The position numbers and the translations under genes were made by a program. From Asterias amurensis (lineage: Eukaryota; Echinodermata; Asteroidea; Forcipulatida; Asteriidae), in assembly GCF_032118995.1 (NCBI RefSeq), contig NC_092648.1, forward strand, positions 21,542,450 to 21,606,449: 64,000 nt of DNA, written 5' to 3'. A model generated the notes under the pieces. It made no database searches. It was not told the origin of the DNA and saw nothing but the letters and a program-made list of their open reading frames with translations. Below, piece after piece: positions 3,401 to 55,802 of the stretch (its first letter is position 1; the number at the start of each line of letters is the position of its first letter).

Positions 3401-6400
3401 TTAAGGTCACAATCCCTGTGTCATATTTAGTGTGAGGATAGAGTGGGAATTAGGTAAGTCGCGTTATAAGGAACAACAGCGTCTTGCACCAGAATTATGG
3501 ATGTACCAAGGGGGGGGGGTGGGTGGTGCCAAAATTTGAGGATTCAAACTTCTCAAAAATCCTTCTCCGGAAGATGTCTGACTGTTTAGGCTATCATCAT
3601 GCATACTACAAGTAATTTTCACACAAAGCTTGATACACGATATCAATTTGCCAAAAAGAAAATAACAACATTCGACTGACACAAAATCCATGACAAAATC
3701 TCAAATGTAACTTGGTGTTTTTCTTGACAATTTGGATCACTTTGGAAATAATTAACACCACAAGTACACATGTTAACTGGGAACTGTCGTCTAAGTGTCA
3801 TTATCAAGCAGACAATTAATACTTATTTAAGTATAGTCGATTAATCAAACGAATTAAAGGTATTGTATCAGACTCAAAGTCAACATTTGAACTTGATTTG
3901 TTTTTGTTCAAGTGAGGTATTGGAAAACACAAGACTGCCAAACTTATCCGGTCATGAGTTCACTGGCCTGGCACTTAAAACTACTGTCCTTGGGCCTGTG
4001 GCGTAGAGTTAAATTGTAGCCCTGAAGTACACAAGTATTGATGAGGGAATTTCTTTTACAATAGTTTAAAGCCTGCAATGTTTTATTTCCCAGTGGATCT
4101 CAGCATACCTGACCTTGTGCAGTTGACCTATTTATGTGAGTGAATCATAACAAATCGGTTTTGTACTGCTGACTGATAAAGAACCCAACGTATTTAACCT
4201 CTCTTCCTGTGTGTTTACTCCTGTTGAATTCCCTAGCAATGAGGAGTTTGATAAATAGCCGGAGCCAGGATGAACTTGAGGGAGGTTTGGTTTATTTTCT
4301 GATGTGGCAGATTTGACTCATAGGATGATTTCATCCAAATATTGACTGCTTTGATTTTTAAGTGCTATGTGACTCTCTCTCTCTCTCGATGGTACCCCAG
4401 AGGGTTACAATTTTCCTCTGCGAAAATAGACGTATCTAGTTACTACAAATCTGCGGTTGATATGGGTATAGTAAAGTGGTTGCTATGGGTATTCCTCGCT
4501 CAGCATTCTAGTAAAAATAAGACGTATCTTAACCAATCACAAGGCAGAATCTTTGAAGCGTTAAAAAAACAAAAAACAAATCTCTCCTCCTGGATTCATA
4601 TGCTGACTTGCCTGGTTGAATGATCGATGAAACGGTCAAGATGTTTGCTGGAGTCCACATGGGGGCTAGGGATGCTGGAGGCATATGAAGGTGCATGGAT
4701 TTTTATTCTACTGTGTCATAGGTTTGGCTCTGTACCAACAATGATAACTAGTATCATCCCATGACCGAGCTTAAATTATTGGGATGATTTTCTTGGTCGA
4801 AAGAACCGTGGAATTTGTTGGACTTGGTTGCAGGAGTGCTGAGTTGGGCAGAGGATATAGATTTCTATTCTGCTGTGTCATCAGTTTGGCATTTTACCAA
4901 TAAGCAAACAAAAATGTTGCTTACCACTGAAATGTTTCTAGCCATACTTATGTCCTAATGCACCGTTTGAGACTGTTTTCCTGCTAATTTTTGCTTAGCT
5001 ACAAAACGCATGCAATATTTTCTGCTAAGAACTTGTACCTCTTTGAACTTTTGCCATGTTTGGCAAAAATATTGATCAAGAAATCTATCAGAAAAGAAAA
5101 CATTTATAGCAGGGAACTAGTCTCGAGCATGGTATTTAATGATCTGCTCAGCAAGATTTTACTCTGCAGATTATTTGCTTGGCATAATATATTGACCAAA
5201 GCAGTCATTATAAAAATTAGTGTACATTAGAGTACCCAGTTTTTATTATTATTATTGCACTTGGAATTTAAAAGGATTTCTTACATGTATATGACATGTA
5301 CTCGTACATGCAATGCCCTATCTACATGGCTCAAACTTAATCCATTAATTTATACACATGACATTTACATTATGGAAATATATGTTTACATATATGGAAA
5401 TAATTATATGTATTATATTGTAAGTGCCTATTGACCCAATGCACAACTGTCATTCACAGCTTCTGTTCCCCATGCTCACCGTCTTAGGGACTCATTATGC
5501 ACTTAAAAACTGCATTTAAAAAGCTAAAAAAGCAAAGTCAGACGTTTTAACTCCCAAAGTACCCAAGATTATTGTGATGATGACGTCAGGTGAATTGGGT
5601 CAATACAAAGACATTTCTGTGTTCATCGAATTGACTCAAGTCCCAACTTTGAAGAGGTGACCCCTTGCTGGTCCTATTTTACAACTAGTATAGCCTTTAA
5701 ATGCTATGGACCTTTTTTTCTTGAAACTCCAGTGTGAGCTAGAACTCCGGCTAAGGCTCCACCTTTTTTAGTTTAATTTTATTTTTGGGAAAAAAGGCTT
5801 CAGTACAGGGCTTCAAATACTTGGGCGGACCCCAAGCCAGGGTCCAAGATCAAGCCATAGTTAAAAAAAAAATATATTGAATGATGCTGAGTACATGCCC
5901 ATTTCAACCAGTATGCACAGACTCTAATAACACTTGTCTTTTCTTTTGTGTTCTTTTTAGGAAGTTGAGTTAATAGAGGAGCCAGAATGCTGTGATGTCT
6001 TTCCAGCCTTTCTCAAGTTTCTATACAGCTGTCACATTGTTCTTACTGTTGAGAACACCCTACCCATCCTCATGCTTGCGGATAAGTACAACGTAGGTGA
6101 CCTGCGCCAGGTGTGCGTCAACTTTGCCACCAAAAGTATCATCCCAAAGCTACCACTGAAGGATGTGTTTCATGTGTGGTATCAATATGCCACAAAATGC
6201 TACCACCACTGTTTGATCTCGTCTTGTATCGCGGCTCTCTCACCAAAAGCCGATGACATTATGTCCCTACCTGAGTGGAACCTAGAGTGGTTAGCCCTCG
6301 ACACAGAGCAGTTGATTCAGTTCTTGAAGAGCTCAGATCTGACCATCAGGAATGAGTTGACTTTGTTCAGAGCTCTTGTCAAGTGGATAGAATCTCCAAA

Positions 6401-7055
6401 GCACCCTGAACGACAGAGTAAGCAGAAGGAGTTTCTCAAACAGATGATCAGTTACATCCGCTTCCCGATGATGACTTCGGAGCAGTTGGAGCAACTTGAG
6501 CATCACCGCATGGTAGAGCTCCATCCTGGTCTGTTCATCCCTTACCTGTTGCAGGCCTACAAGTACAATGCCATCTCCCTGGAAGCCCGATGCAACAACA
6601 AAGATTTCACAGCCTCAAACTTTCTACTGCGGAATTACACTGACCTACGCTGGGACAAACGTATCGTTCTATCTGGATACTCGTGCTTTGGGAGACTCAC
6701 TGAATTCATGCCACGGTTTTCAACACGCTCATCCTCATACCCTCACACCAGCTGGGACTGGGAGTTAAAGATTTACCCCAAGGGTTCGTCCACAAATAAT
6801 GAGGACTTCCGAGTGGTTCTCTACTCAAATGTTGTCTTGGATTTGCCGCGGCCAATGGAATACATGATCTCAATGGTGAATAGTGAAAATGTGCTGGTAT
6901 CCGTCTCCGGAAAAAAGAACTTCACAAAATCACGATACACAGCCGACTCGGATCTGGATAAAAAAGTATCGGTGGACGAGTTGTCAGCACCGAACTCTCG
7001 CTTCCTGGTGAATGATAACGCCATCCTACAGGTCATGATCAAACCATTACAGTGA
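490..7055 (+). CDS. BTBD17: BTBD17-like BTB/BACK domain protein, last two coding exons
   Basis: Two exons, 490-861 and 5961-7055, join in phase 0 across a GT-AG intron (GTAAGT at 862, polypyrimidine tract plus TTTTTAG before 5961). Reading from the Met at 517 gives 479 codons, almost the length of human BTBD17. Residues about 73-175 form a BTB/POZ fold that crosses the splice junction (SDIKLRVG, AHKLILVRSS, LPILMLADKYNV). A BACK region follows (about 190-310, with LFRALVKWIES and SYIRFPM), then a C-terminal TRAF-like beta region ending FLVNDNAILQVMIKPLQ, which aligns with the end of vertebrate BTBD17. A splice acceptor at 488-489 and an open frame before 517 show that at least one upstream exon lies outside the window, so the true start is unknown. 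Vertebrate BTBD17 is thought to be secreted; no signal peptide is visible after Met 517, so a signal could only be upstream. BTB-BACK proteins usually act as Cullin-3 adaptors, but no Kelch repeats follow here. Confidence 0.88.
1122..1509 (+). mobile_element. Family A TTAA-flanked MITE, copy A1
   Basis: Both ends carry TTAA. The left end reads TTAAAGACACTGGACACCTT and the right end is its imperfect inverse (GTGTCCACTGCCTTTAA). The interior matches the other family A copies: a 'cacccttgtcacacgaagttg' block, a 'cagagggagccgtt' block and a small internal palindrome. It encodes nothing. TTAA ends fit a piggyBac-type target site, but the transposase source is not in the window. Confidence 0.85.
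1629..1800 (+). repeat. Degraded family C fold-back element
   Basis: It begins with GGGCCCAATTTCAT, the family C left end, and has 'gctaagca' motifs typical of its interior, but the right end is not clearly preserved. It is the oldest-looking member of the family here. Confidence 0.45.
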
Positions 7056-12050: not shown

Positions 12051-15000
12051 ATGGCTAGATTTCGAACCAAAAGATGTGTCCTTTTCGTTACCGTTACTGT
12101 GGTGGTAATTTTTATGTTGAGGACGTTTTTAATGGCGGGTGAGATGTCAGGGAATTCCAATGGAAGCAAGAACAACCAGCCCAATCAGGCAAACAAACTG
12201 GTAAGACAACTAAGAATTTCTACTCAAATTGTCCAAACTCCACTGCACTGCACTGCATGTGGTGACCTCAGCAAGTGCCTGGATGTGCTTTTTTGTACTC
12301 ACAAGTTACAATTCTTCAATGTACAGCCACAGCAGAGTACAGTCCAGACTGCTGAACTACCATAATGTCGTTGCACAGTTGATTGCAAAACTGGGCTTGA
12401 CTTGAAGTTGAATTGAATGAGTGTCAATAATTTTAATATTCAATTACAAACTGCAACCATGGAGGTAGGATTGCTGCAACCAAGCAGCAATCCTGTCTTT
12501 TTGTTTGTGTTATTTTGCAATGTTGTTGTTTTTTTGTCACTCAAATACAAGATTAGTTGCGATAACGTAACCCTCCTCCTGATGGCCGCCAGGCCGGAGG
12601 GTTATGAGATTCCTTTGAGCAGAAACGGTTGATCTGGTCCAACACGTACAATTTCGACAGCTATAGTCACTAGATTTGCCCCATTTTTACCACTTTCAAA
12701 AATCATGACACAAATTCTGAGGGTACGAACTTAATCCGCAATGTCTAATGCAGCCCGCCATAATACTCAAAACACCATTTAGGAAATATTTCAAATAAAA
12801 ATGGACAAAAACTTACCAGATCCCGGAGCGAAATCCCAGGTTCATATTTTGAACCTGTCGCATCGCTTTGCAAACGCATTATTTTGTTGTTGGGCTAAAC
12901 CATTCTGTAAAAGGGGTGTTACAATGTTGCAGTGCGTGTGCCGCTGTCCATTTGCATTGCACGCCGTTCACTCATAATGGCGCGCACGCACTGTGGCACT
13001 GCAACATTGTAACACCCCTTTTACAGAATGGTTTAGCCCAACAACAAAATAATGCGTTTGCAAAGCGATGCGAAGTTTTTGTCCATTTTTCTTCGAAATA
13101 TTGGATAACTTTCCGTATGGCGCCACCACTTTTTCACTCATTTTTACAAAAAGGGATATGTCAATCAGGTAAATTAGATACTATATTATTTTATTTCGAA
13201 TGAAAAAGTGGTGGCGCCATACGGAAACTTTTCCGAAATATTTCCTAAATGGTGTTTTGAGTATTATGGCAGGCGCTGTCCATTTGCATTGCACGCCGTT
13301 CACTCATAATGGCGCGCACGCACTGTGGCACTGCAACATTGTAACACCCCTTTTACAGAATGGTTTAGCCCAACAACAAAATAATGCGTTTGCAAAGCGA
13401 TGCGAAGTTTTTGTCCATTTTTCTTCGAAATATTTCCTAAATGGTGTTTTGAGTATTATGGCAGGCTGCATTAGACATTGCGGATTAAGTTTGTTCCCTC
13501 AGAATTTGTGTCATGATTTTTGAAAGTGGTAAAAATGGGGCAAATCTGGTGACTAGCTGTCGAAATTGTACGTGTTGGACCAGATCAACCGTTTTCGCTC
13601 AAAGGAATCTCGTAACCCTCGGGCCTGGCGGCCGTTGGGAGGAGGGTTACGTTATTGCAACTAATACAAGATTAAACTGTAACTTAAGTTGCAAGTCGAT
13701 TTCACGAAACTTTACACAACTGCGTAAGTCCACTTTGGACGTTTATGGCGCAAAAACATTGCGCAAGTGGACTTACGCTGTTGTGAAAAGTTTCGTGAAA
13801 TTGACTGCTGATGCGTTTACAAAGTTTGATAAAATTGTACAGTTCTGAACCCAGTACATAGGCAAGGAATTCTGGACATAAGGAATGTGAACAAAGCGTC
13901 AGCTTAATTCCTCTATTATTAGTAGGGCCTATTATTTAGGTATAAATATAAAATAAATTGCAGTAGTCAGTACCTTTATATTCTGGACTCTGTAGTTACC
14001 TGTACTGTAGTTACCTGTCATCACGGGCTCTAAGTTAAAGGCAGTGGACACTATTGGTAATTGTCAAAGACTAGCCTTCACACTTGGTGTATCTCAACAT
14101 GCATAAAATAACAAACCTGTGAAAATTTGAGCTCAATCGGTCATCGAACTTGCGAGATAATAGTGAAAGAAAAAAACACCCTTGTCACACGAAGTTGTGT
14201 GCGTTTAGATGGTTGATTTTGAGACCTCAAGTTCTAAATCTGAGGTCTCGAAATCAAATTCGTGGAAAATTACTTCTTTCTCGAAAACTATGTCACTTCA
14301 GAGGGAGCCGTTTCTCACAATGTTTTATACCATCAACCTCTCTCCATTACTCGTCACCAAGAAAGGTTTTATGCTAATAATTATTTTGAGTAATTACCAA
14401 TAGTGATCCACTGCCTTTAAGACTAACTCCTATAATGCCCACCTTATTTCGTTCAAAATCCACTGCATGGGTTATCATGTTGTACAAAGATTAATCTGAA
14501 CTTGGAAAGCAGATAGATATTTTGTCTGCTTAATAGTCATACTTGTCGTACTTTCTTGTGAAAAAAGCATCAGTTTCACCTTGAAGGCATTGATCGATGC
14601 TGCTTCTAATGCCGTACTGCCATAGGAGCATGTTCCAGTGGTCAACTACTCTGTGTGTAAAGCTGTTCTTTCTGATGTTCAAGTGGGCATGTTGCTTCTG
14701 AATTTTCTTGCTATGGCCTCTCACTACTCAGGTTTATGGTTCCTTCATCGAAAAGAGGCTATCTCTGTCCACGTAACTGATGAGTCCTTTCATTATCTTG
14801 AACACCTGGATCATGTCACCTCGAAGGCGTCTGTAGGCCAAAGTGGGCAGGTCAAGCAAGTCTGCTCCAGCCGGTTCTAGTATGGGAGATCTTTTATACT
14901 TGGGACCATTTTTGTTGCCCTTCTCTGCACTTTCTCCAGCTTAGTGATGTCTTGACTGAGAAATGGATTCCACATGCAATTTGCATATTCCAGGTGGGGT

Positions 15001-21000: not shown

Positions 21001-24000
21001 AAGTAAGTATTTAAAATGCTAAAAATTATTTTGAGTAATTCCCAATAGTGTCCAGTGCCTTTAAACAGGATTGTGTTTTGGAGATGTTTCTCATGAACGA
21101 CATAAGTAATAAAGATCTAGTGGGAAATAAAATACACTGTTTGCGTCCATCAATGCCGAGGGTGGGATAATAACAGACACTGTGCATCATGCATTGTCAT
21201 GCATGAAATTTGATTAAAAGATTGTTTGAAGTCCCAACACGTAAATTCTGCCTGTGGTGACGAAGTCCTTAAAAAAACGCCAGGGAAGCGCGAAAGAAAA
21301 ACATGCTACTACCGAATAGAAAACTTGCACGATTAATTCCCTCATGCCCTTCATCATTGTGCATGGGTACAGATCCTATGGGTATTTTGAAACATGTTAT
21401 ATGCTTTGACAACTTAAAGGCACTGGACACAATTGGTAATTACTCAACATAATTGTTAGCGCAAAGCTTACTTGGTAACGAGTAATGGGGAGCTGTTGAC
21501 ATTGTGAGAAACGGCTCCCTATGAAGTAACATGGTTTTTCAGAAAGAGGCATTTTCTCACTCAAATAATGAAAGACTTAAGCTGAAACCTTTTTTATGCA
21601 TCTGAAAGCACACAAAGTAATGCAACAAGGGTGATTTTCTTTCATTATTCTCTTGCAAATTCGATAATCAAATGAGACCAAATTTTCACTGGTTTGTTAT
21701 TTTATGCATATTTTTTGGGATACACCAAGTGAGAATACTGGTCTTTGACAATTACCAAACGTGTCCAGTGCATTTAATACTCCTTCCTCTCACCATAGAG
21801 CTAGCTCTTCGCTCTCGCATCAGACATTTTATTGTAGCCTAAACTCCTTGACACCCCTTAGCAGTGTTTATGCATGAATTTAGTTTCTTTAAGAAATAAG
21901 ATACTGCTACATGTAGGTGTAAGGATGCAGTGGATTTGAGGCAGGGGTGTAATAGTGTTTTGATATGAGCGGTAACATTACACTGGCAGTGTGTCTCAAT
22001 CTATATATTAAGCTAAATGTAATTGGCAGTTGCAAGATTACTTTTACACTACTGAGGAGAGTTGTGTTACGTTAAAGGTGTAATGGGCAAATTTCACATT
22101 AAATACACCTATCAGAATTCTTGCTCTCTTAAAGCCATTATACACTTTCGGAACCGAAAAAAAAAAAAGTTCACAGATTTACAAATACCTTACAGGTTTT
22201 ACAGAAGGTAGTGGTAAAAGACTTCTCTTGAAATATTATTCCATGAAATGCTTTACTTTTTGAGAAAACATTAAAACAATTATCAATTCTCGACAACAAG
22301 AATTACGGGTTATAGTAAACACATGTCATGACACAGCGAATTGTGTGGAAACAAGGGTGGGTTTTCCCATTATTTTCTCCCGACTCCGATGACCGATTGA
22401 GCCTAAATTTTCACAGGTTTGTTATTTTTTATAAATGTTGTGATAAACGAAGTGTGGGCCTTTGGACAATACTGTTTACCGTAAGTGTCCAATGGCCTTA
22501 ATGGTCATCTTAAAAAATAAAAAATAAGGTTGCCCCAAACAAGCCCGTAAGCCACTCTTAATGAGGGGCTACAAGAACAAAATATTTCAGATGAAAATAA
22601 CTCGGGGGAGCTGAGGGTAGGAATTGATATTCTTCTTGAAATAGTCTAGATTGCTTTATTGGGGAAACATGAGCCAACCTGATTCACAAACTCATTATTA
22701 TGACATGATATCCATCATGATGACATATATGATTTTGTGGTGTTATTATAAAGTTTTGTGTTTTTTACTGTTTTGTGGTAACCCAGATGCAAGTATTGGC
22801 ATTATCCTGAGAAGTTACCAACCACCAGCGTCATCATAGTATTCCACAACGAGGGCTGGTCTACGCTACTCAGAACTGTACATAGTGTGTTCAATCGATC
22901 TCCACCACAACTCCTTCATGAAATCATACTAGTAGATGATGCAAGCACAAAAGGTCAGTTTCCTTCAAAAAACTGAAGGGGTAGAATTTCTAGAAACATA
23001 CAAAAATAGCCTGTATTCAGTTGAACACTTTAGTATTATATTGACTACACTTTTACAAAATTGTATATCCGTCTGAAATAAATAGATTTTTTAAACCAGG
23101 GACTGTTCTTTAATTACAAAAAAGTTCTTTGGCCAGATTTATGCACAAGAAGATTCTTGATCAATTAAAGGTAGTGTCTTCTCTTGGTATACTCTTCCCT
23201 TGTTTTGCTTCAGTTTGATTGGTTTAATACAACACACATGGGAGTTAGGGACCTTAAACAAAATTGAGCGATTTTGAGCGAGTGTTTTTTTCTTTTTCGG
23301 ATGTGACAGAGCATGTGAAGAAGAAGCTAGACGATTACGCCCTGTCGGCGCGGTTCAGCGGTAAACTGAAAATTGTTCGGAATGAGAAGCGTGAAGGGTT
23401 GATCCGGACACGCATCAATGGAGCCAAAGCCGCAACGGGGGATGTTCTGCTATGGTTGGATGCACACTGCGAGGTTGGAATTAACTGGTTGGCTCCTCTG
23501 CTCACCCCGATAGCACTCAATAGGTAAGAAGACATTTCCAAGTAGAGAGTTAAAGGGAAGGTATATGTTTGGTAACCACTCTCTCAAAACTAAAGGCAAC
23601 ACAATACGAATTTACTTGGTGACAAGTACATGTACAACAGCCTTCGAATAGTACAGAACAATTTGAGAGTCATTTTACTTCGAAGTAATGTGATAAGAAT
23701 TTGAATCTGAGAAGTGCTACTGTCGGAAACGTTTCTCAGATTGTGTATTCCAATTACAGATTATTTTTCCTCACAGGGACATAACCACGCCCGATTTTTG
23801 GCGATATCTTAAAAACACGACCACCTTTTGAAATTAAGTCTACACATGTTAGTTTTATTGCATCTAAATTTCTATAGGATTAAAACAATCCAACGTTTAA
23901 AAACAAACAAATACTTTCCCATTAAAAGTATTTATTTTACTTGATTTTTGTGGTAACGTCCAGGAAAAAATAGGATTATTTGAGTAATAATCACACAATG

Positions 24001-27000
24001 TACATATGTACATGTACAATGTAACCTTTGCGTTACATACTGTGCATATATAGGTATTCAGTCTCAAAGAATCATTCATGTATATGTATAAATGCTTTTG
24101 TGTTATCTGTTGCATGAGCCTCCAGCATTAAACCATTTTATCTACACGTATTATTTAGTTACTAAAACATTTACAGCTCCAGAATGCACTGCATAATTGT
24201 TATAAACAATTATGCCTCAAATTAAGTTTGTTAGTTTTCTGCCATGCAATTTGTGTCAGTGCACTTTTCTTATGCAGTCACATTATAAAAGTGGTTATAG
24301 ACTCACTGAAAACTAATGCGATAAAAACTGCTCAAGTAATATGCATGTTAGTCAGTACAGGTGGGTAAACATATAACTTGGACCATGTACGCATGCAATC
24401 TTAGTGAAATTTTGACACGTTTGTCTGAAATCCAAGAAAAAACATGAGGGAAGAGTTTTAACTGTGTCATCAATAGTGCTGGGCGAATAGTGAAATTTTG
24501 TTATTCCGATACCGCTGGCCAACTATCCGAAATTAACCAGTTATTTGAATGTTTTTTTTGCCGCTAGAGGGCGCTATTAAAAAAATAAAAAAATAAAATG
24601 AATGAGATCTTATGGGCGGATTGATATTAGTTTTAGACAGTGTCACTCGGTTCATTCATAAAAATGACCGGATCTAATTTAAAGATGGCGATTTGCTAAT
24701 TCTTTTGATTGTGATTGACTCTACGTGAAGGAAAACTTTTGTAATCTTTGAACAAATTACGTCAGAAATGTCATTGTTTTAACTCTTCACGGAGGTGAGC
24801 ATAGTTAAATACTTAATTTATGATGTTTTATGCTGTCTTAATAGAAGTTTCATAAGGATTCTGACAAAAAAATTCACATCAGTTGTCGCCCGACGTTCGC
24901 GGATATTCGGATATTAAAGAATATCCGGTTTCTAAATAGCTATTCGCGCCCTATGCGGATATTCGGTTAAGAAAAAAAAGGCATTCGCGGTTACGGATAG
25001 GAAAACCTATTCGCCATTAACCGGATATTCGAATAATTCGCCCAGGCCTAGTCATCAACAAAAGTCACACCTGTATGACAGGACAAATATTAACAGTTCG
25101 CGCATTAGGGAAAAGATTTGTCCATCTCTGGACATCTCTCTTATCAGCAGAGCCCTGTTCTTTTTTTTAAGGGGCAGCCATGCCAGAAGTAAATTTCTGC
25201 ACCATTTAACAACGGCTGCAGATGCTGGAAGGGGAAAGCTGATTTTGTTTATATAGCAACGGCTGAGATTGATGAAGAGGGTGGGTTGAGCACGTGGAGG
25301 AATCACCGACTAGAATCATTCAGCCTAGCTTTAGGCCAAATAATAATAAAAACATGCTTACCGCCCTGTCTGCTACCTTTTTAGAAGCTACCTCCTTTTT
25401 CTTTTCTTTTTCTTTTCTTCTTTTTTCACCCTTTTTAATGAAAAACAATTTCCCCCCCCCCCTTTTTTGTCCGATTTTGAACATGTGTCTTTTTCATAAA
25501 AAAAAAGATACATTTAAACGATCTCATACTTTTTAGTTTTTAATGTGTCATGTGGCCATTTTGAGAAGAAAAAAACGTCCCTCCTTCCTTTTTTCAAAAA
25601 GGCAGGACGCAAAACATGTTAATTTTTTTTTATTTGGCTAACACTATCGGCAGAGAGGGGAGATGGGGATATTGATTTTAAAGAGGCAGGGGTTCATTCT
25701 CTTTACCCTTTGGAAATTGACTACAATCAATAAATGTTCGAGGAAATACAAACTATATTCTCTTGTCAAATTTCATCAATATTCATTTAAGGAATTGAAC
25801 ACGGAAAAAAAACAGGGAAAAAAAACATTCAGACATTAAATGGACAAATAGACCTTAACATGAGATCTACATGAACAAAAAGACTAATAAACAGATACAA
25901 GGAACTTAAAAAGCTAGGAACTTATCTAAAGCCATTAAATTTTCACATGTTAGTTTCACATGTTCTACATTTATATAGGATTAAAATAATCATCAAATGT
26001 CTTGAAATGAAAAATCAAACGGTTATTTATATAGGATTAAAATAATCATCAAATGCCTTGAAAAGAAAAATCAAACGGTTATTTATATAGGATTAAAATA
26101 ATCATCAAATGCCTTGAAATGAAAATCAAATGGTTATTTAGCCTATATAGGATTAAAATAATCAAATGTCTTGCAATGAAAATCAAACGGTTTCAGAAAC
26201 CGAATGATACTTTCCCTTTTAAGGACAAAGCGCCTGCTATTCAAGTGACAATGTCTGTGTAGAATACAACATCACTTCCCTGTAGAAAATGGTGTTATTC
26301 AGTAAATTCAATATGAGCACCACATAGGAGAAACTTTGATAAAACAAACATGTTAAGAGTGTTGAGCGCGTTGACTTGTTTTGCTTGTTAACAAAACAGC
26401 TTTGATGGAATGTTTTCTTTTGGTACTACTTAATGTAAGAATATTAGATGGCCAGTATGTACATACAGTTGCCCCACCACCTCAATGAAGCACCAGTCTA
26501 AACACTTGACCTTTTCACAATCTCACACTCTTGTTGTAGGAATGTTATTTAATACAATAAAGACAATGTGTTTTTTGACAGTGACTTTTTCCCCTGCATC
26601 CTGCAGAAGAGAGAAATTGATATTTCGTGAAAATATTTATGTGCAAATTTTTGTGTGAAATTGACATACATTCATATTTCATGCTTTAAATTTTGCTGTT
26701 TGATGACTTGTTGATTGAGTATGTCCAGGAATTGTTTGAGGCTTGCGGCAGCACCATGTGTGGATCTCTTTTGGGTTGTGTTAGTTCTTAAAAGAACAGG
26801 TGGTTGACAACTCAACATTTTTATCAGTATGCTCCGGGCCCAATTTCATAGAGCTGCTAAAGCACAAAATGTTGCTTAAGCTCAAAAAAATCTTGCGTGG
26901 TAAAATCTGATTACCGGCCAAGACTCCACTCCCTTGTTATGCTAAGTAAACAACAGCTAAACAGCAGTCATAAGCAATGTATATGGCATGAAATTACGGC

Positions 27001-30000
27001 CAGTAACATGTGTAAAATAAGCGAGCTATTTTCGGTGTTAAGCAAATCTTTTGCTTAAACAGCTCTATGAAATTGGCCCCTGATCGTGTTAAGAAGCATA
27101 CGTTGAGTCATTAATCAACCACCAATTCTTCTCAGAACAAACACTACTCAGATATGATTAACACATGGTGCTACACCGAACCTCACCTGATAATACTCCC
27201 ACCATGCAGAGTTTCAAATTCTTCAAACTTTTCTTTTATTCAGTGTTTCCTTTTTTCGTTGTTTCACAGAACAACAGCTGTGTGTCCCGTCATCGACGTC
27301 ATCGACAACCAGAATTACAAAGTCTATCCGCAAGGAACGGGAGACCAAGATCGAGGAGGGTTTGACTGGAGTCTGTACTGGAAACATTTTCCCATCCCAG
27401 AGTTTGAGCGAAAGAGAAGACGCTATGAGACGGAACCATACAGGTGTGTTAAACACTTCTGTGCAGTCAATTTCGGAGAAGTTGTTTGTACCCCAGTTTG
27501 GCTTGTTTAACTGAGCAGATTAATGAGCAGATTTTGAAACAGCCCCTTGCCTACCTCACCAATCTTGTGAACACTGAAATCACATTTTAAGGCTGGTTTT
27601 TTTCTCCTTTCTGGTTTTTAATTGTAGATATATTCTTGGTGCATTTTTACATAGTATGTTTTCTATTGTGCAGGTATAATGTTTTTAACTATTGTAATGT
27701 TTTTAACGATCTGGAATTTTTTCGCAATCCAGAAGTATGATGTGATGACAGTTTTATGTTTAGTTTTATGTGATGTCTTTTCTAACTTTTGTTTTATAAC
27801 AAATCCAGTCCGATTATCGTTGTAAATAAATTATCCTTATCTCACCTTTACCTTTTAAATAAATAAACCATAAACCATGACAGGGATTGTTTTGGCTTAG
27901 CTGTAGAATATGAAAGTGAGAAGCAAGTAGACACTGTATTCAGCTAAAACATTAACATGTTGCTATCAATCATGCAAAGTTTTAAACCTTTTTTGTGTTG
28001 ATATATGTGTTTTTATATTATTGCTGATGATAATTTGCTGAAGTTGTGATTTCCAAATGTTAAACTCCCAGATCACCAGCAATGGCCGGCGGTCTGTTTG
28101 CCATGGACAGAGAGTTCTTCTTTGAGCTTGGAGCCTACGATGATGGCCTGGAAATCTGGGGCGGGGAAAACTTTGAACTCTCTTTTAAGGTATTGTAACC
28201 CAACCATCCTGATAAGATGTTATTTGCCCATGGCTTGCGCTCATAGACGGGCTTATGAACTCATGATGACAATATCCTAGTTTTGAGTGTGTTGTGGTGG
28301 GATGATCTGGAAGTTTTCCAACAGGGCCCTCTTTTGTTCGATAATAATATGTGCAGCTAGAGGAGAATTAGTGTAGCCGGGATCGCAGTAGCTGCACAAA
28401 CACTAATATGGCTGTTGCTCACAATAGACCTTATGCACATGACATCATTGTAATTGGGCGCTCTCTTGTCTAGAGATCAAAAGATGGTTGCTCATTGGCC
28501 ACCCATCTGTTGTGCAGTGCATAAATTGGTGTTACAAAAAAAAGAATGTTGTCACAATGTGTTGTAATTCTTGTTTCTTTATTATTTTGAATTTGAGTAA
28601 TTGCTGTGGAAATGATTTAATCCACACCACACACTTTACCAGAAACACCAGTTTCAAGTCATCTTGATTTTATTTCTTACTGACAGTATTTGATTATTTT
28701 GCTATATACATGTACCTTTCTATTTAGAAAGACTCTGCTCGGGTCGAAATTGGGCCACTAACAGTTTTTTGCATTTATGCCATAGGTCCTTTTGGTTGGT
28801 GAGCAGTTTACAACAGCTAATTCCTTTTTCAGAGTCAGTATTTTTAGTTAAATTCCTATCCTTCAGATCTGGATGTGTGGAGGATCCCTCATCTGGGTCC
28901 CATGCTCCCGTGTGGGACATATCTATAGAATCCTTGGCAGGGTACCATACTCGGCTCCAAACGGGAACATGGCAGTATTAAGTGAAATGGTAAGACAGTT
29001 ATAATCAAGGTGTAATCCTAACTGGCGATGTTATTTTTGTTTTATCTTTGTTGATTGCGTGACCCTCAGCTGTGGATGTGCGGGGGGTCCCTACTGTGGA
29101 TACCGTGTTCCCGTGTTGGTCATGTGTATCGGATTCATGGTAAGGTGCCCTATTCATCTCCAGGTGGAAGCATGATGATGCTTAGCGAGAGGGTAAGAAT
29201 GATCCTCACTCTCGGTGGCTAGATTTCTCTCTCTGCTCTGGTGGATGGATTTCTCAAACCCTTCTCCTACTTGGTTTAAGTTTCCCGGTAATTGTTTTGT
29301 CATCTTTATTTCCTTGGATTTCTTCCTCTGCTGTGTTATGAATAATGACGATCTAATTCTGAAGATTGTGCCTGCCGTAATTTTTGTTTATTATGCGATG
29401 ATTGCTTGGTTTGGATTTGAATCTCGTTACACCTAATCTCGATGTTAATTCAAACTCTTTGCCAACTCTCTCTCTGTCCCAACTCCTCCCCCACCCCACA
29501 CCTGGGCCCAATTTCATAGAGCTGCTAAGCACAACAATTTGCTTAGCATGAAATTTCTTCCTTGATAAAAACAGGATTACCAACCAAATTTCCATTTTTT
29601 GCATATTGTTTGTACTGGTATTCAGCTGTTGTTTGCCTATTCTGAAAATCACGTGGAAATTTGGTTGGTAACCCTGTTTTTATCAAGGAAGAAATTTCAT
29701 GCTAAGCAAATTTTTGTCGTAGCATCTCTATGAAATTGGGCCCTGGTCTCCCTACCAATCCAAATCAGGGCATGGCTCTCTCATTGTGGAGTATGTCTGT
29801 CCCGTCTCTCACATTGTCAATATTGCCAGGGGTGTGGGGGACAGTGAGGGCTATGTTTTTGATCAAATATCCCAATCATTTTGGTCATGGTTGTTAGCCT
29901 GGATTGAATTTTTGACAAATTCGGGAGAGGGATGTGTTCTTAATTCCAACCATTTTAGGCCAGAATTGTTGGTTGGATCTATTGTTAAACTGATGAATTG

Positions 30001-32662
30001 AAGACATTAGATGGAAGTCTCACCGTAATTCTGGGCATGGGCAGAACAGATTATACCTGGTCAGTCTGAAGCCACATACATGTAGTGTTTTTTTTATTAA
30101 TTCTAGTTTGGTCAAAAGTTCTAAACAAAATTGCAGAGCAGCTTATCCTTCCTTATATAAGTGATGTCCTTTCTCACAAATGTTTATGCTTGATTGTTAG
30201 ACTATTTGCTAACAATTCTGAACACTGCTTTAAGTATCTGGTGATGGATATTAATTTGTTTTCTGTTCTTCTTCGTGTGTTGAATGGCTGAGTGTTTATG
30301 TTGCTACTTCTGTGTATTTGATTCCCAGTTAAACTGCACAGCATAAATGTTTATATATTTGAACCCTAACTTTTTCCTTTGTTTGATAATTTAACTTGAC
30401 ACAGCTAGCTTGAAATAATTTTGACATTTACTTGTCTTGTTTACTTTTTTACTCTTAACACATTTGTTTTATCAAATCTTACATTTGATAACGCCACCAA
30501 CTCTAATCACTATTTAAGTCAGTTATTTAAAATTAATTTTTGAAATGGTCTTTTTTTTAAGATGTCAAACTATGTAGGCCTACTTTATTTATGAATGATT
30601 TTCCTTTCTGATTAACGAAGTCATAGAGCTCCAAAAGTAGAAGGGTTTCAACGACCTCGTTCCCAGGGATGATCAAGCCTAGTGCGCTTGATCGCTTGGC
30701 CACAACATGCCACCTTATGCACAACACACATTCTGATATTACTTAGTGTAGTCAGGTAGTGTACCGGTAGTGTAGTATTGCACAGGCTTAGTACGTTACT
30801 TCAGAGGGAGCCATGTGTCAAAATGATTTATACTATCAACAGCTCTCCATTGCTCATGTTTATGCTAACAATTATTTTGAGTAAATACCAATAGTGTTCA
30901 GTGCTTTGAATAAGCACTGACTTTGGCTTACAGTAAGCAGCATCCAAACCTTTTGCTCTTGTCTACATGTAGGTCTCATGCCCCATCCTCAAATTCTCAT
31001 TTTAGTTCTTTACACTGTTTTAAGTCTCTGTTAAAAACTCAATTGTTTGAAGCTGCTTGTTTGTAATCTGCTTATTTGTAATTGTATCTTTCACTGATTG
31101 TATACTTAATTGTTCTCTTAATGTGCTTATGCCCCTTGGCGCTTTACAAATGTCCTTGTTATTACTATATTAGGAAACTCAAGCATAACTGAATATTTGT
31201 GTATAACCGCTCCTTCTTTGTTGTATTATAAGTTTACATATTGTTTTTGTTGTAACTGGGGTTTGTTCCGGTTTTTGGGGAATCAAATTCAATACAACTA
31301 TTTCTATTCTTTCTGGGCATCCAGTCTCAACTAGGTCACCAATTGAAACATCTCTGTTATCTCTCTAGAATCTGAAGCGTGTGGTTGAAGTCTGGTTCGA
31401 CGAGTACAAAGAGTATTTCTACCGCAGTAAGCCAGAGGCCCTGTTGGTCTCTGCGGGAAATATAGACAAACAGCTTGAGTTCCGTCGTCAGAAGAAGTGT
31501 CGATCGTTCTCTTGGTATATGAGTGAGATTGCGCCAGATATTGTGGAGAAGTTTCCTCTACCTGCAGCTAATATACAATGGGGCGAGGTGAGTGCTGATA
31601 CTCCATGAAGCGTTTTTATATTCAGTTGCCGTCGCTCAAAGACAAATTAACGCAGTATGAGAACTGAGCCTGTGATCTCCGAATTAACGTGAATTAACAC
31701 AGAGCTATCAGGCCCCTAGTGTTGGCGGTCACCCTATTTTGTATATGTGGTGCTAGTCAGAAGCCATTTAACTTGTAACTGTTTATGAGTAACAGGTTGA
31801 ATGGTTTCTGATTAGCACCCGGCCAAAGAAATTGACCGCCAATATTAGGGCTACATAGATCAGTAAGTAGAGTGCCGGCACTTTAATCCGGAGGTCCAAA
31901 TCGATCAAGTAAATTTGTCTCTGTATAACCTCAATTTTTTTTTAAAGCTTACTCATTTGGTTTCCCTTGATATTTGTTTATTGATACCTAAAAGTTACAA
32001 TACTGGTTTGCAGTCAGTTTTAAGGGTACCTCGAGATAATTCTATCTGAAAATAATTACTACTCATTTTTATGTATTCTGGAGAAATAAATAAACTTTTT
32101 GAATTGTGTTTTAGGTAAGAGTAGCCGGGGGTCATGTCTGTGTGGATTCAATGGGTCAGAAAGATGGCGGTAAGGTCGGTATGTCGTACTGCCACGGTGC
32201 TGGAGGCAATCAACTCTTTAGAGTAACGCAAGACGGCCAGTTTCGTATTCATGATCAATGTGCCTATAAATCATCATCAGATGTCAGGTTACGACGGTGC
32301 GACTCTACGAGGTATCAGTGGGTGTACAATTTGGTGAGTGTGATGAAAATCATAATCATATTCCATTATCAATTCTCTGATTCAGGCTTTCTTATTGTTG
32401 CTTTTTATTTTGCCATTCGTTTTTAAAACAAAGATCACTTACTACCATCGATTGCTTGTATAGTGTTCATCATTATAAATAAAGTTCTTGAATTTGTTTG
32501 TCTTTCCTTGCTTTGCAGAACACACAAACATTATACTTGGAGGATCTACACGAATGTTTAGATCATAGACCAGCCACCAAAGAAGTTTATATGACAGCGT
32601 GTGTACCAGACAAAAGAACACAACAGTGGGAAATATCATCAAAGGGACTCAAACATCATTGA
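12051..32662 (+). CDS. GALNT7: Polypeptide N-acetylgalactosaminyltransferase, GALNT7-like, complete
   Basis: Transfers GalNAc from UDP-GalNAc to Ser/Thr in the Golgi (mucin-type O-glycosylation); GALNT7 relatives prefer substrates already carrying GalNAc. Exons: 12051-12200, 20322-20623, 22787-22953, 23310-23523, 27270-27443, 28072-28189, then 28867-28989 OR 29070-29192, then 31369-31587, 32115-32333, 32519-32662. All junctions are GT-AG and phases agree, giving 609 codons with one copy of the alternative exon. Visible: short cytosolic tail and type II anchor (about residues 9-30); [16 protein letters not shown]; metal-site LDAHCE (D257, H259); [26 protein letters not shown] (H393); and a ricin-type lectin domain from about residue 490 (CVDSMG, DQCAYK, ECLDH, QQWEI). 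CKYWHY and [12 protein letters not shown] point to GALNT7, whereas the loop after H393 is shorter and more GALNT10-like. GALNT identity is near certain; the subtype is less so. Confidence 0.95.
12554..13663. mobile_element. Family F: 1.1-kb nested palindromic element in GALNT intron 1
   Basis: The left end TAGTTGCGATAACGTAACCC is mirrored by GGGTTACGTTATTGCAACTA at the right. About 250 bp of each arm matches ('ggttgatctggtccaacacgtac' against 'gtacgtgttggaccagatcaacc', and so on). Inside lie two more palindromes, 12850-13075 and 13110-13230, and a direct duplication of about 155 bp (12946-13100 and 13276-13430). Open frames of 100-111 codons here are by-products of the repeats. No transposase. 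Confidence 0.85.
13696..13807. repeat. Fold-back element (GTCGATTTCACGAAACTTT ends)
   Basis: The arm GTCGATTTCACGAAACTTT pairs with 'aaagtttcgtgaaattgac', and 'gcgtaagtccactt' pairs with 'aagtggacttacgc'. The hairpin lies about 30 bp to the right of element F. Confidence 0.75.
14035..14420 (+). mobile_element. Family A TTAA-flanked MITE, copy A2
   Basis: A well preserved copy: TTAAAGGCAGTGGACACTAT at the left, the inverse at the right with one extra base in 'gtgatccactg', and TTAA on both sides. It contains the internal palindrome 'gagacctcaagttctaaat / ctgaggtctcgaaatc'. Confidence 0.9.
14530..15410 (-). mobile_element. LINE remnant, 3' half of reverse transcriptase (CR1/jockey-like)
   Basis: Read on the minus strand. 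The region starts with the RT catalytic motif (MFADDT, about 15381-15398), continues through [30 protein letters not shown] and [16 protein letters not shown] (15041-15300), then [21 protein letters not shown] (about 14770-14850). It ends with the usual C-terminus ([15 protein letters not shown]) and a stop at 14530. The frame changes several times, so it is dead and 5'-truncated. The order and motifs are those of a CR1/jockey-group non-LTR retrotransposon; the exact clade needs a search. Confidence 0.85.
16735..16860 (+). repeat. LINE/SINE tail fragment
   Basis: Contains 'gcgccttgagaaccttg...gctatataaagactttgatatta', the kind of 3' tail shared by invertebrate SINEs and their partner LINEs. 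It is preceded by three short tandem 'actcagcgcctt' units. Confidence 0.5.
17198..17319. repeat. Fold-back element (GATTTCACAAA ends)
   Basis: 'gtcgatttcacaaactagtcc' pairs with 'actctttgtgaaatc'; the interior is repeated 'tagtcctaacttg' words in both orientations. Relatives occur at 35836-35950 (partial) and 38934-39108. Confidence 0.7.
18244..18830 (+). mobile_element. LINE remnant, reverse transcriptase middle region
   Basis: The plus-strand frames show [11 protein letters not shown] (RT motif, about 18268-18300), a decayed active-site stretch ([10 protein letters not shown], about 18381-18410), and a broken reading of the following region (a WMNEKLN-like stretch, 'GTP', then a HFEY-like stretch near 18750). 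Frames are interrupted repeatedly. It resembles L2/CR1-type elements and differs from the copy at 14530-15410 in sequence and orientation. Confidence 0.7.
19848..20150 (+). repeat. tRNA-derived SINE, degraded
   Basis: A box-B-like 'ggttcgagtttc' is followed by 'cttaagcaagacccatgagcattactgctttgtccttcggatgggac', a SINE body layout similar to the copies at 33724 and 39373. It ends near 'gctttataagaactg'. Box A is weak. Confidence 0.55.
20680..21064 (+). mobile_element. Family A MITE, copy A3
   Basis: Left end 'taaaggcactggac', right end 'gtgtccagtgcctttaa'. It starts about 57 bp after the donor of GALNT exon 2. More diverged than A2, with a shortened centre. Confidence 0.85.
21414..21777 (-). 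mobile_element. Family A MITE, copy A4, reverse orientation
   Basis: TTAAAGGCACTGGACACAAT at the left, 'gtgtccagtgcatttaa' at the right, TTAA on both sides. Internal blocks run in the opposite order to A1-A3, so the copy is inverted. Confidence 0.85.
22129..22501 (+). mobile_element. Family B TTAA-flanked MITE, copy B1
   Basis: The left end TTAAAGCCATTATACACTTT pairs with 'aagtgtccaatggccttaa'. The interior contains 'gatgaccgattgagcctaaattttcacaggtttgttat', also found inverted within family A, so A and B share ancestry although their ends differ. The second copy is at 41233-41623. Confidence 0.8.
24474..25050. mobile_element. hAT-like non-autonomous DNA transposon, 577 bp
   Basis: The element starts TAGTGCTGGGCGAATAG and ends TTCGCCCAGGCCTA, imperfect inverted repeats of about 15 bp. 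It is flanked by an exact 8-bp direct repeat, GTCATCAA (24466-24473 and 25051-25058). An 8-bp duplication and TAG-type ends are hallmarks of the hAT superfamily. The interior is full of 'ggatattcgg' and 'ttaaccggatattc' words in both orientations and has no transposase frame. It lies in GALNT intron 4. Confidence 0.85.
25965..26195 (+). repeat. ~57-60 bp tandem repeat, four units
   Basis: 'tatataggattaaaataatc' recurs near 25973, 26029, 26085 and 26145, each followed by 'atcaaatgccttgaaa' and 'atcaaacggtta'. The units are very alike, so the expansion looks recent. It lies within GALNT intron 4. Confidence 0.8.
26836..27080. mobile_element. Family C fold-back element, copy C2
   Basis: GGGCCCAATTTCATAGAGCT at the left; 'aacagctctatgaaattggcccc' at the right. 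It ends about 190 bp before GALNT exon 5. Confidence 0.8.
28867..28989 (+). CDS. GALNT7: GALNT alternative exon 7a (catalytic loop)
   Basis: 123 nt, 41 codons, phase 0 at both ends, preceded by a TTCAG acceptor and followed by GTAAGA. It encodes WMCGGSL, then [10 protein letters not shown] with the metal-binding His, then the loop [12 protein letters not shown] up to MAVLSEM. It fits exactly between FELSFK of exon 6 and NLKRVVEVW of exon 8. Confidence 0.93.
29070..29192 (+). CDS. GALNT7: GALNT alternative exon 7b (catalytic loop)
   Basis: 123 nt, 41 codons, phase 0 at both ends, preceded by CCTCAG and followed by GTAAGA. It encodes [17 protein letters not shown] and the loop [12 protein letters not shown] up to MMMLSER. 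By my count it matches exon 7a at 29 of 41 residues. Differences are conservative around the active-site motif and cluster in the loop and its C-terminal side. The open frame and intact splice sites argue that it is functional. Confidence 0.93.
29504..29743. mobile_element. Family C fold-back element, copy C3 (best preserved)
   Basis: A near-perfect 240-bp hairpin. GGGCCCAATTTCATAGAGCT, 'gcttagcatgaaatttcttccttgataaaaacagg' and 'accaaccaaatttcca' are each mirrored in the right arm. The loop is 'cattttttgcatattgtttgtactggtattcagctg'. It lies in GALNT intron 7. Confidence 0.9.
30794..30910 (+). mobile_element. Family A MITE fragment, copy A5 (right third)
   Basis: Only the right part is present: 'gttacttcagagggagcc' through 'gagtaaataccaatagtgttcagtgcttt'. 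The left end is missing. Confidence 0.75.
30955..31185 (+). mobile_element. LINE 3'-end remnant
   Basis: Encodes a broken LINE C-terminal tail ([21 protein letters not shown], about 30989-31050) and then a 3' UTR-like end 'ggcgctttacaaatg' before 'ttattacta'. This 'FK..LKT.LF' tail is common at the end of invertebrate LINE ORF2. Short and dead. Confidence 0.55.
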
Positions 32663-33016: not shown

Positions 33017-33090
33017 AGAGATCAAACAGCATTAGTATTTCAAACAGCAACATCCAAATCAAAATTTTAAAACTCGCACATGTATGCCTT

Positions 33091-33467
33091 TTAAGGAACA
33101 CGTTGCCTTGGATCGGTCGAGTTGGTCTATAAAAAGCGTTTGTAACTGTTTTTTATAAAATGCATATGGGTAGAAAGATGTAAAAGTAGAATACAATGAT
33201 CCACATAAACATGCCTCGAAATTGCATGGTTTTCCTTTTACCTCGTTGACTACCACGGTCGGCCATTTATGGGAGTCAAATTTTTGACTCCCATAAATGG
33301 CCGACCGTGTTAGTTCACGCAGTAAAAGGAAAACCGCGCAATTTCGAGGCAAACTTGTGTGGATCATTGTATTCTACTTTTAAAACATCTTTCCAACCAT
33401 ATGCATTTTATAAAAAACGCTCAGTTATAGACCAACTCGTCCGATCCAGGGCAACGTGTTCCTTTAA
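33091..33467. mobile_element. Family E long palindromic MITE, copy E1
   Basis: Nearly the whole 377 bp folds on itself: TTAAGGAACACGTTGCCTTG at the left, 'cagggcaacgtgttcctttaa' at the right, and a centre of 'gggagtcaaatttttgactccc'. TTAA sits at both ends, as in families A and B. The second copy is at 53642-54029. Confidence 0.9.
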
Positions 33468-33960: not shown

Positions 33961-34482
33961 ATACATGTAGAGCCTTTGCACTACGTGCAGTGTACTCACA
34001 CGCGCATATTCTGTCGGCCATTTAAGGGAGTCAAAATGGAGCACAAAAAATGCACAAAAGATTTGACTCGCTCTAGTTCTATTATAAAATTCTTTCATTT
34101 CCATGGAGAGCTACATATTCATATTAAGAGATGGAATTTCAAATTCAAGATGTAACCTATTTCATTTGTTGTCTATTTTACTTTATTATATTTTAACAAT
34201 AAATTATGAACAAGTAGAGATCCATCAAACACAAGATCAGAGTTTAACAAGAATATTTTTTAGTTTTATTTTTTTAAAGATGTAATTTAACATAAAGTTT
34301 TGGTAAGTAGTAAGTACAATTTGCTAGCAAGTCAATCCATGGTTTGGATTTGGAATAAAGTCAGAATAGAATTGGGAATTTTTATTAGTTTGTTTAAAAT
34401 CTAATTTTTGCATGTTGATAGGTCACTGAATATGTCCATGTGGCAGACAAGTTTGTCATTAGCTGTCTGAAGTTACAATATA

Positions 34483-34622
34483 AGTTATCACACAAGCGCG
34501 AGTGGAATACGGAAAAATATAGCGCTTCTGCAGCCCATATCCAACGAGGCCGAAGGCCGAGTTGGGTATGGGACGCAGACGCGCTATATTTTCCGTATTT
34601 CCACGAGCGCGCGTGTGATAAC
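34483..34622. repeat. GC-rich fold-back element
   Basis: 'gttatcacacaagcgcg' and 'ggaatacggaaaaatatagcgc' are mirrored by 'gcgctatattttccgtatttcc' and 'cgcgcgtgtgataac'. The loop is 'gaggccgaaggccga'. Much richer in CpG than its flanks. Confidence 0.8.
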
Positions 34623-35233
34623 GTATTTATCTTCAAGCAAACTTGGCGCGTGACATAGAACACACAAGACGCATGGTAGTGATATTAGCCGTGCAATATA
34701 GGTTTTTATCACCACTCCATTCTGCCAATCTGATTTGAGGATTAGCGCGTACTTGAAGATAATGGGTTTTTACACCCCTCGTAATGCATTATGGCATTTT
34801 GCTGTATTAGTAGGCTTTAATTCATTTGTATTATAACTCTTCAAAAGTTAGCACTTGTACACCATACATATTTTGTCTCGCCAGAGCAAAAAATATTGTT
34901 TCAAAATGCAAAAGCAGTTGATGACATCGCGTTTCAAATATATAGCCTACATTTTTTTACAGAAAATTTTAAGTTCTGATAGATGGTAAATTTGCATCGT
35001 GCTAACTTGCATCAGTGTATATATGGGTAAAACCAAAAGGATAATTTTAAGTTCATTCGTAATTTTGATGATATTAAGTCAAAGCATGATTGATTTTGAC
35101 CTTTTGACTTGTGCAACAAAAACCCTCTTTGGAATGTTATTATGTCCATTGACTTTGTGTTTGTTTTAAATTTGGCTCTGGAAGAGTAGCATATATGGAA
35201 TTTTTACATGTGGTTAGAAACACAGCTTGGACT

Positions 35234-35533
35234 TCCTGCAGTAGCCTTGCTCAAGGCAGTCGCATTATTCGCTCCGAAAAGACGCCGCTGTAAACCCACC
35301 CGTATACCCTGTGCGTACCCGTATACACACTGTCACATCGTACGACGACTGTGCACACAAGTCATCCGCACTCGTACCACTAACTGCATGCGGAGGCCGA
35401 CGCATGCGGATAGTGTATGGGGGCATCGTGTCGTGCGATGTTACGCACAGTTAATACGGGTGGGTTTTTATACAGTGGCGGGTTTTTTTCGGAGTGAATA
35501 ATTCGACTGCCTTGGGCAAGGCTATTCCTGCAG
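35234..35533. repeat. 300-bp fold-back element, family H, copy H1
   Basis: The left end 'cctgcagtagccttgctcaaggcagtcg' mirrors 'cgactgccttgggcaaggctattcctgcag'. Further in, 'ctccgaaaagacgccgctgtaaacccaccc' mirrors 'gggtgggtttttatacagtggcgg'. A diverged relative lies at 52650-52890. Confidence 0.8.
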
Positions 35534-55528: not shown

Positions 55529-55802
55529 AGGACATGCTTCGAGTTCGGGGTGGACGTTGAGGGATCATGGGTCAAGGGGGTTTTATAACATATTGAGTTA
55601 TCTGCTGAGGTCTCTAAAAAATGTTGAAAAATGACAAAATTTCGCTTTCAGTAAGAAGGTAACAAGAATGAGTACATCTTCCCTGCTTTATTCTTCTAAG
55701 AGTAACAATACAGTGGGTTGGCATGTACACACGTATAAATTTATAATATTCTTGAATAAGAACAGTTGGCAAGTAACTTTTTTATTTTTTTATTCTGCAG
55801 AT

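Follow-up and report, generated by a model that had tools for sequence, protein, structure and literature searches.

A starfish GALNT7-type gene with a duplicated, probably mutually exclusive exon for the catalytic flexible loop

The window analysed here is a 64,000-nucleotide stretch of the genome of the starfish Asterias amurensis (RefSeq assembly GCF_032118995.1, contig NC_092648.1, positions 21,542,450 to 21,606,449 of the forward strand). It contains, on the plus strand from 12051 to 32662, the complete coding region of a GALNT7-type GalNAc-transferase gene, whose product has a GT-A catalytic domain and a ricin-type lectin domain. There are ten coding exon positions and position 7 is present twice, as exons 7a and 7b. 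It is likely that exon 7 was duplicated anciently and that its two copies are mutually exclusive by steric hindrance of splicing, with an exchange of the flexible loop of the catalytic domain and a difference in preference between the isoforms. The features of the gene are as follows.

12051..12200, plus strand: coding exon 1 (50 residues), with the start codon and the N-terminal membrane anchor, donor GTAAGA; the joined model is identical to P0003
20322..20623, plus strand: coding exon 2, stem region
22787..22953, plus strand: coding exon 3, start of the GT-A catalytic domain
23310..23523, plus strand: coding exon 4, DAH motif with the metal-binding D and H
27270..27443, plus strand: coding exon 5, single copy in this gene; the equivalent segment is the one exchanged in isoform models of vertebrate GALNT7
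28072..28189, plus strand: coding exon 6, WGGENFE
28867..28989, plus strand: alternative coding exon 7a, 41 residues, predicted isoform X1
28927..28968, plus strand: flexible loop of 7a, residues 396-409, equivalent by alignment to GalNAc-T2 R362-S373 (loop limits as given in PMC4432651)
28990..29069, plus strand: intron between 7a and 7b, 80 nucleotides
29016..29022, plus strand: predicted branch point TCCTAAC, with its A at 29021, 32 nucleotides from the 7a donor and 48 from the 7b acceptor
29070..29192, plus strand: alternative coding exon 7b, 41 residues, predicted isoform X2
29130..29171, plus strand: flexible loop of 7b, residues 396-409, by alignment (loop limits as given in PMC4432651)
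31369..31587, plus strand: coding exon 8, NLKRVVEVW, helix I onward to the end of the catalytic domain
32115..32333, plus strand: coding exon 9, lectin domain
32519..32662, plus strand: coding exon 10, lectin domain and stop codon

Exons 7a and 7b are each 123 nucleotides (nt) long and of phase 0; each has an AG acceptor and the donor GTAAGA. Their translations are identical at 29 of 41 residues, including the motif PCSRVGH, and their DNA at 81 of 123 nt; by codon position, 31, 35 and 15 of 41 first, second and third positions agree. The window sequence thus bears out the initial annotation of two intact 123-nt exons of equal phase, and the ends that it gave for the neighbouring exons, 28189 and 31369, are both correct. 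Adjacent homologous exons of the same phase are the mark of a tandem duplicated exon pair, and 7a and 7b have this arrangement.

Are the two copies used as alternatives? When the exons are joined with 7a, the translation matches every letter of the NCBI-predicted A. amurensis isoform X1 (P0003, 609 residues); joined with 7b it matches isoform X2 (P0019, 609 residues), and joined with neither it matches isoform X3 (P0024, 568 residues), in which 28072-28189 runs in frame into 31369-31587 and both alternative exons are skipped. The starfish isoforms are therefore already present as predicted models in the NCBI annotation. No model with both 7a and 7b is found among the best 120 of 6133 matches. 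The proposal of mutually exclusive use draws support from these three models, none of those listed having both exons, and from the predicted branch-point geometry. Exons 7a and 7b can be regarded as alternative versions of one 41-residue segment, and one gene probably makes two enzymes, each mRNA taking either 7a or 7b. Isoform X3, which is without His393 and the loop, should be inactive to judge from its sequence; it is possibly a non-catalytic product, and its match to Pfam PF02709 scores 22.8, just under the curated cut-off of 23.

The exchanged segment, residues 376-416, contains the metal ligand His393, the whole flexible loop (396-409) and the initial turn of the helix that follows. D257, H259 and H393 are invariant in a 31-sequence alignment; the metal-binding roles of the DxH motif and of the third His are described in PMC6115407 and PMC4432651. 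As the initial annotation held, the metal-ligand His is common to 7a and 7b, and it is the active-site loop itself that is exchanged, residues 396-409 aligning with R362-S373 of GalNAc-T2 (T2). The starfish loop has two residues more than that of T2, so the exact matching of residues is uncertain. His393, Arg396 and Tyr403 (T2 H359, R362 and Y367) are identical in both copies. The 12 differences, given as 7a/7b, are I/L376, I/L384, V/I386, I/V394, L/H398, R/K400, A/S405, N/G407, N/S409, A/M411, V/M412 and M/R416: four lie before the loop, all of them exchanges among I, L and V, five inside it and three after it.

What might these differences do? In Drosophila pgant5, the GalNAc-T1 orthologue, splicing exchanges the catalytic flexible loop between isoforms A and B, according to a preprint (PMC12776162). 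The same source reports that isoform A predominates in the salivary gland, that A and B prefer different peptides, and that the residue at 419, D or K, tilts activity toward basic or acidic mucin peptides. By analogy with the fly enzyme, the two starfish isoforms would have different preferences for acceptors or glycopeptides; both would be active, with differing loop gating, and the choice between them would be regulated. Exon 7b is the more basic copy; since it gains H398 and R416, its product is predicted to prefer more acidic surroundings.

How could 7a be kept from joining to 7b? The 80-nt intron between them is the shortest of nine compared, the other eight ranging from 185 to 3746 nt. 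Its predicted branch point TCCTAAC outscores the best near-acceptor candidate of each of the other eight introns and is followed by 46 nt without an AG, up to the terminal AG; none of the other introns has an AG-free stretch as long as the 58 nt that precede the 7b acceptor. Of 3000 shuffles, 44 equalled the branch-point score and 70 the AG-free tail. A minimal distance of about 50 nt between donor and branch point is reported in PMC6692369, where 35 nt abolished assembly on E1A. Because the predicted branch point serving the 7b acceptor is only 32 nt from the 7a donor, joining of 7a to 7b is probably blocked sterically. The paths 6-7a-8, 6-7b-8 and the 6-8 skip would stay possible, matching the three predicted isoforms. 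In OGDH, exons 4a and 4b are kept exclusive by branch points that lie close to the 5' splice site (PMC7969005), and potential interference between branch point and donor is reported for 57 of 629 human exon clusters in PMC5740500.

Several results weigh against this combination of an exclusive exon pair, a steric block and altered preference. The isoforms are NCBI predictions, known here as models. The reading frame cannot enforce exclusivity: the exon length of 123 nt is divisible by 3, and a joined translation with both exons, 650 residues long, is open and in frame, so frame-based enforcement was ruled out. As to the predicted branch point, 558 of 20000 80-nt stretches drawn at random from the window score as high, and with a weaker candidate at nt 65 of the intron, 15 nt short of the acceptor, the steric block would vanish. 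The suggestion that most of the differences fall in the loop or beyond it stands as a count, with 8 of 21 positions differing from the loop onward and 4 of 20 before it, the latter all I/L/V exchanges, but the enrichment is not significant (Fisher p = 0.31). Finally, the specificity residue of pgant5 (D/K419; T2 K363) corresponds to I397, which is invariant between the starfish isoforms, with L/H398 adjoining it; this correspondence depends on the HMMER gap placement.

The exons might be exclusive and leave substrate choice unchanged. The gene would then encode two near-equivalent enzymes, and the choice of exon would tune level, stability or timing. The residues common to both copies at the active site (His393, Arg396 and Tyr403), the conservative nature of 4 of the 12 differences and the lack of enrichment around the loop all fit such an arrangement, which is nevertheless on the unlikely side, albeit a serious contender. 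In pgant5 a single loop residue alters specificity (PMC12776162), and each starfish copy has changes of its own relative to six other echinoderm orthologues: N409, A411 and M416 are found only in 7a, and L376, I386, H398 and G407 only in 7b, while the six orthologues agree with one another at five of these seven sites. Since both copies have their own changes, neither 7a nor 7b is simply the ancestral exon.

Exclusivity could also be imposed by regulators or RNA pairing instead of branch-point spacing, which is unlikely. Just 3' of 7b, at 29193-29272, lies a PTB-like pyrimidine tract that suggests PTB-like control. It has five UCUU/CUCU motifs in 80 nt, and of 5000 stretches drawn at random from the window 0.98% have as many; the weaker branch-point candidate at nt 65 points the same way. 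However, the motif was picked post hoc from 10 motifs in 5 regions, and the steric geometry would be enough by itself if the predicted branch point is right.

How old is the pair, and are both copies maintained? By the Nei-Gojobori method (NG86), the proportion of synonymous differences (pS) between 7a and 7b is 0.825 and the nonsynonymous divergence (dN) 0.214. Synonymous sites are near saturation, and the proportion of nonsynonymous differences (pN) reached pS in 0 of 2000 bootstraps. In 5000 neutral simulations, one copy was left to drift until its third-position divergence matched that of 7a and 7b. Amino acid identity was then at most 19 of 41, so that the observed 29 of 41 was reached in none, and a stop codon appeared in 4216. 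Both chance similarity and a decaying duplicate were ruled out on these grounds. The duplication is old, and the protein sequence has been kept in both copies. The 60-nt flanks of 7a and 7b match at 25 and 22 positions only and have no clear homology, and the dating of the duplication by intron homology was dropped for this reason.

The predicted models carry no expression level, which leaves some room for one exon being minor or dying, with only the other used at a meaningful level. This is very improbable: splice sites are intact and frames open in both exons, neutral decay is rejected for a pair so diverged, and 7b is identical at every residue in A. rubens, though the species are close. 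The A. rubens isoform X2 (P0020) differs from P0019 at four residues, none of them in exon 7b; an A. rubens isoform X1 was not among the best 120 of 6133 matches. An annotation artefact, whether from paralogous genes lying side by side or from a duplication made in assembly, can be dismissed, as exon 7 alone is doubled and the synonymous divergence of the copies is too great for an assembly error. A tblastn search of the window with the peptides that exons 2-10 encode gave no other convincing copy, the best other match being to exon 9 with E 0.018; further copies of exon 7 and a duplication of coding exons 2-10 within the window were rejected accordingly.

The assignment to the GALNT7 type, already made in the initial annotation, agrees with the phylogenetic tree. 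The starfish gene falls in a GALNT7-like group of 31 rows (99/98), apart from T10-like rows, and within an echinoderm and hemichordate subclade of 12 rows (100/99), in a tree rooted by midpoint with outgroup rows that are few (4) and long. The hemichordate row P0035 has RIHGK like 7b, and H398 and K400 are thus not unique to starfish. Isoform X1 of Acanthaster planci (P0005, one sequence shown to represent five members) mixes the 7a-like I384 with the 7b-like S405 and M411 and is identical to each copy at 35 of 41 residues. Names without an isoform label in Diadema, Amphiura, Antedon, Anneissia and S. purpuratus suggest that there is one exon in these animals. No further starfish orthologue was found among the best 120 of 6133 matches, nor in two smaller sets of 16 and 6 matches.

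Is the exchange of this segment confined to echinoderms? Two Branchiostoma belcheri GALNT7 models, X1 and X2 (P0052 and P0053, both 544 residues), differ at six positions, all in the segment equivalent to exon 7, and models X2 and X3 of a B. floridae x B. belcheri record (P0050 and P0048) differ solely in that segment. Together, these four amphioxus models contain at least three versions of the loop segment. The likeness to the starfish gene is that the isoforms differ in exactly this segment and nowhere else, and the B. belcheri pair has E/K at the column of L/H398. By contrast, the B. belcheri copies are identical at 35 of 41 residues (29 of 41 in starfish) and belong to another sequence class with a GW.GNPPP loop, and in the tree amphioxus joins GALNT7 of vertebrates and tunicates, apart from the starfish gene, which falls among echinoderm and hemichordate sequences. 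The differing columns common to both animals, 4 of 6 (P = 0.05), are too weak an indication alone. Because the pairs are more alike within species than between them, the swaps most simply arose independently; they may alternatively reflect shared ancestry followed by homogenisation.

Vertebrate GALNT7 models (e.g., P0072/P0088 and P0084/P0099) also have an in-frame swap of one segment of the catalytic domain, but the segment is one of 61 residues, equivalent to coding exon 5 and upstream of the loop exon. Among the models listed, this swap occurs in four of nine vertebrate species compared: Nothobranchius, Plectropomus, Cyprinodon variegatus and Oryzias sinensis. The models of Paramormyrops, Takifugu, Amphiprion and Seriola differ elsewhere; of the two Arapaima models, one has both exon-5-equivalent copies, but 196 positions separate the two, which may come from different genes. 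Models from turtle, catfish, stickleback and alligator (P0042, P0046, P0044 and P0040) have both 61-residue copies in tandem, and the pairs P0068/P0114 and P0100/P0109 are further cases of alternative use of the segment. A literature search found no report of this tandem segment in vertebrate GALNT7.

Elsewhere in the window, open frames with Pfam BTB (517-921) and with BACK and BTBD17-type TRAF matches (6072-7052) lie upstream on the same strand, and 517-7055 is probably one BTBD17-like gene. A 547-residue open frame at 55668-57311 looks by eye like a C2H2 zinc-finger protein. Foldback inverted repeats, by eye resembling miniature inverted-repeat transposable elements (MITEs), occur at 26737-27185, 29531-29717, 33090-33467, 34480-34626 and 35242-35524; one of them, in the intron after exon 7b, has 64-nt arms that are 97% complementary.

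Has an exchange of this kind been described before? The literature search found no description of a loop-exon swap in GALNT7-type genes, in agreement with the initial annotation, and nothing on such a gene in connection with mutually exclusive splicing in starfish. In the accessible portions of three papers, GALNT7 appears only as exon 6 skipping (PMC13039441), GALNT is absent from the main text (PMC5740500) and GALNT7 is not in the text (PMC5665647). What is new is the starfish GALNT7-type case, the amphioxus swap of the same segment, the vertebrate swap of another segment, and a mechanism that could plausibly keep the exons exclusive. According to PMC9996832, it is unknown how GalNAc-T7 and T10 act on sites close to a GalNAc already in place; with 12 differences around the flexible loop, the natural pair of GALNT7-type enzymes is well suited to experiments on this question. 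Tentatively, the flexible-loop exon may be a recurrent switch site, independently swappable in the starfish GALNT7-type gene, amphioxus GALNT7 and fly pgant5, with a residue one or two positions after the conserved loop Arg changed each time (L/H, E/K and D/K) and with follow-on O-glycosylation by GALNT7-type enzymes retuned by splicing. If true, this recurrence would suggest that the loop is where evolution tunes O-glycosylation specificity.

The exclusivity of the starfish exons is predicted from sequence. For the alpha-tropomyosin exons it was reportedly shown experimentally, by Smith and Nadal-Ginard in 1989, and for OGDH exons 4a and 4b it has likewise been shown by experiment (PMC7969005). 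Among GalNAc-transferases, the precedent named in the initial annotation, a lectin-domain swap in a fly Pgant, is pgant9: its exons 8A and 8B alter substrate specificity and are used in a tissue-specific manner, as in PMC6115407, but the swap lies in the alpha repeat of the lectin domain and not in the catalytic domain. The precedent is correct yet incomplete, for pgant5 swaps the catalytic loop (PMC12776162). Tandem duplicated exon substitution is annotated for GALNT13, Pgant5 and gly-5 in vertebrates, arthropods and nematodes (PMC9741552), and these are GalNAc-transferase genes other than the GALNT7 type. In pgant5, as in the starfish gene, splicing swaps the flexible loop of a GalNAc-transferase. 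The fly gene, however, is GALNT1-type and its isoforms, as described in the preprint, differ within 398-457, including helix I, the turn and helix II, whereas the starfish gene is GALNT7-type, is known from its sequence and swaps 41 residues that end at the start of helix I. The exchange of the loop by splicing is thus already known from pgant5, and the starfish case is a real and apparently independent one.
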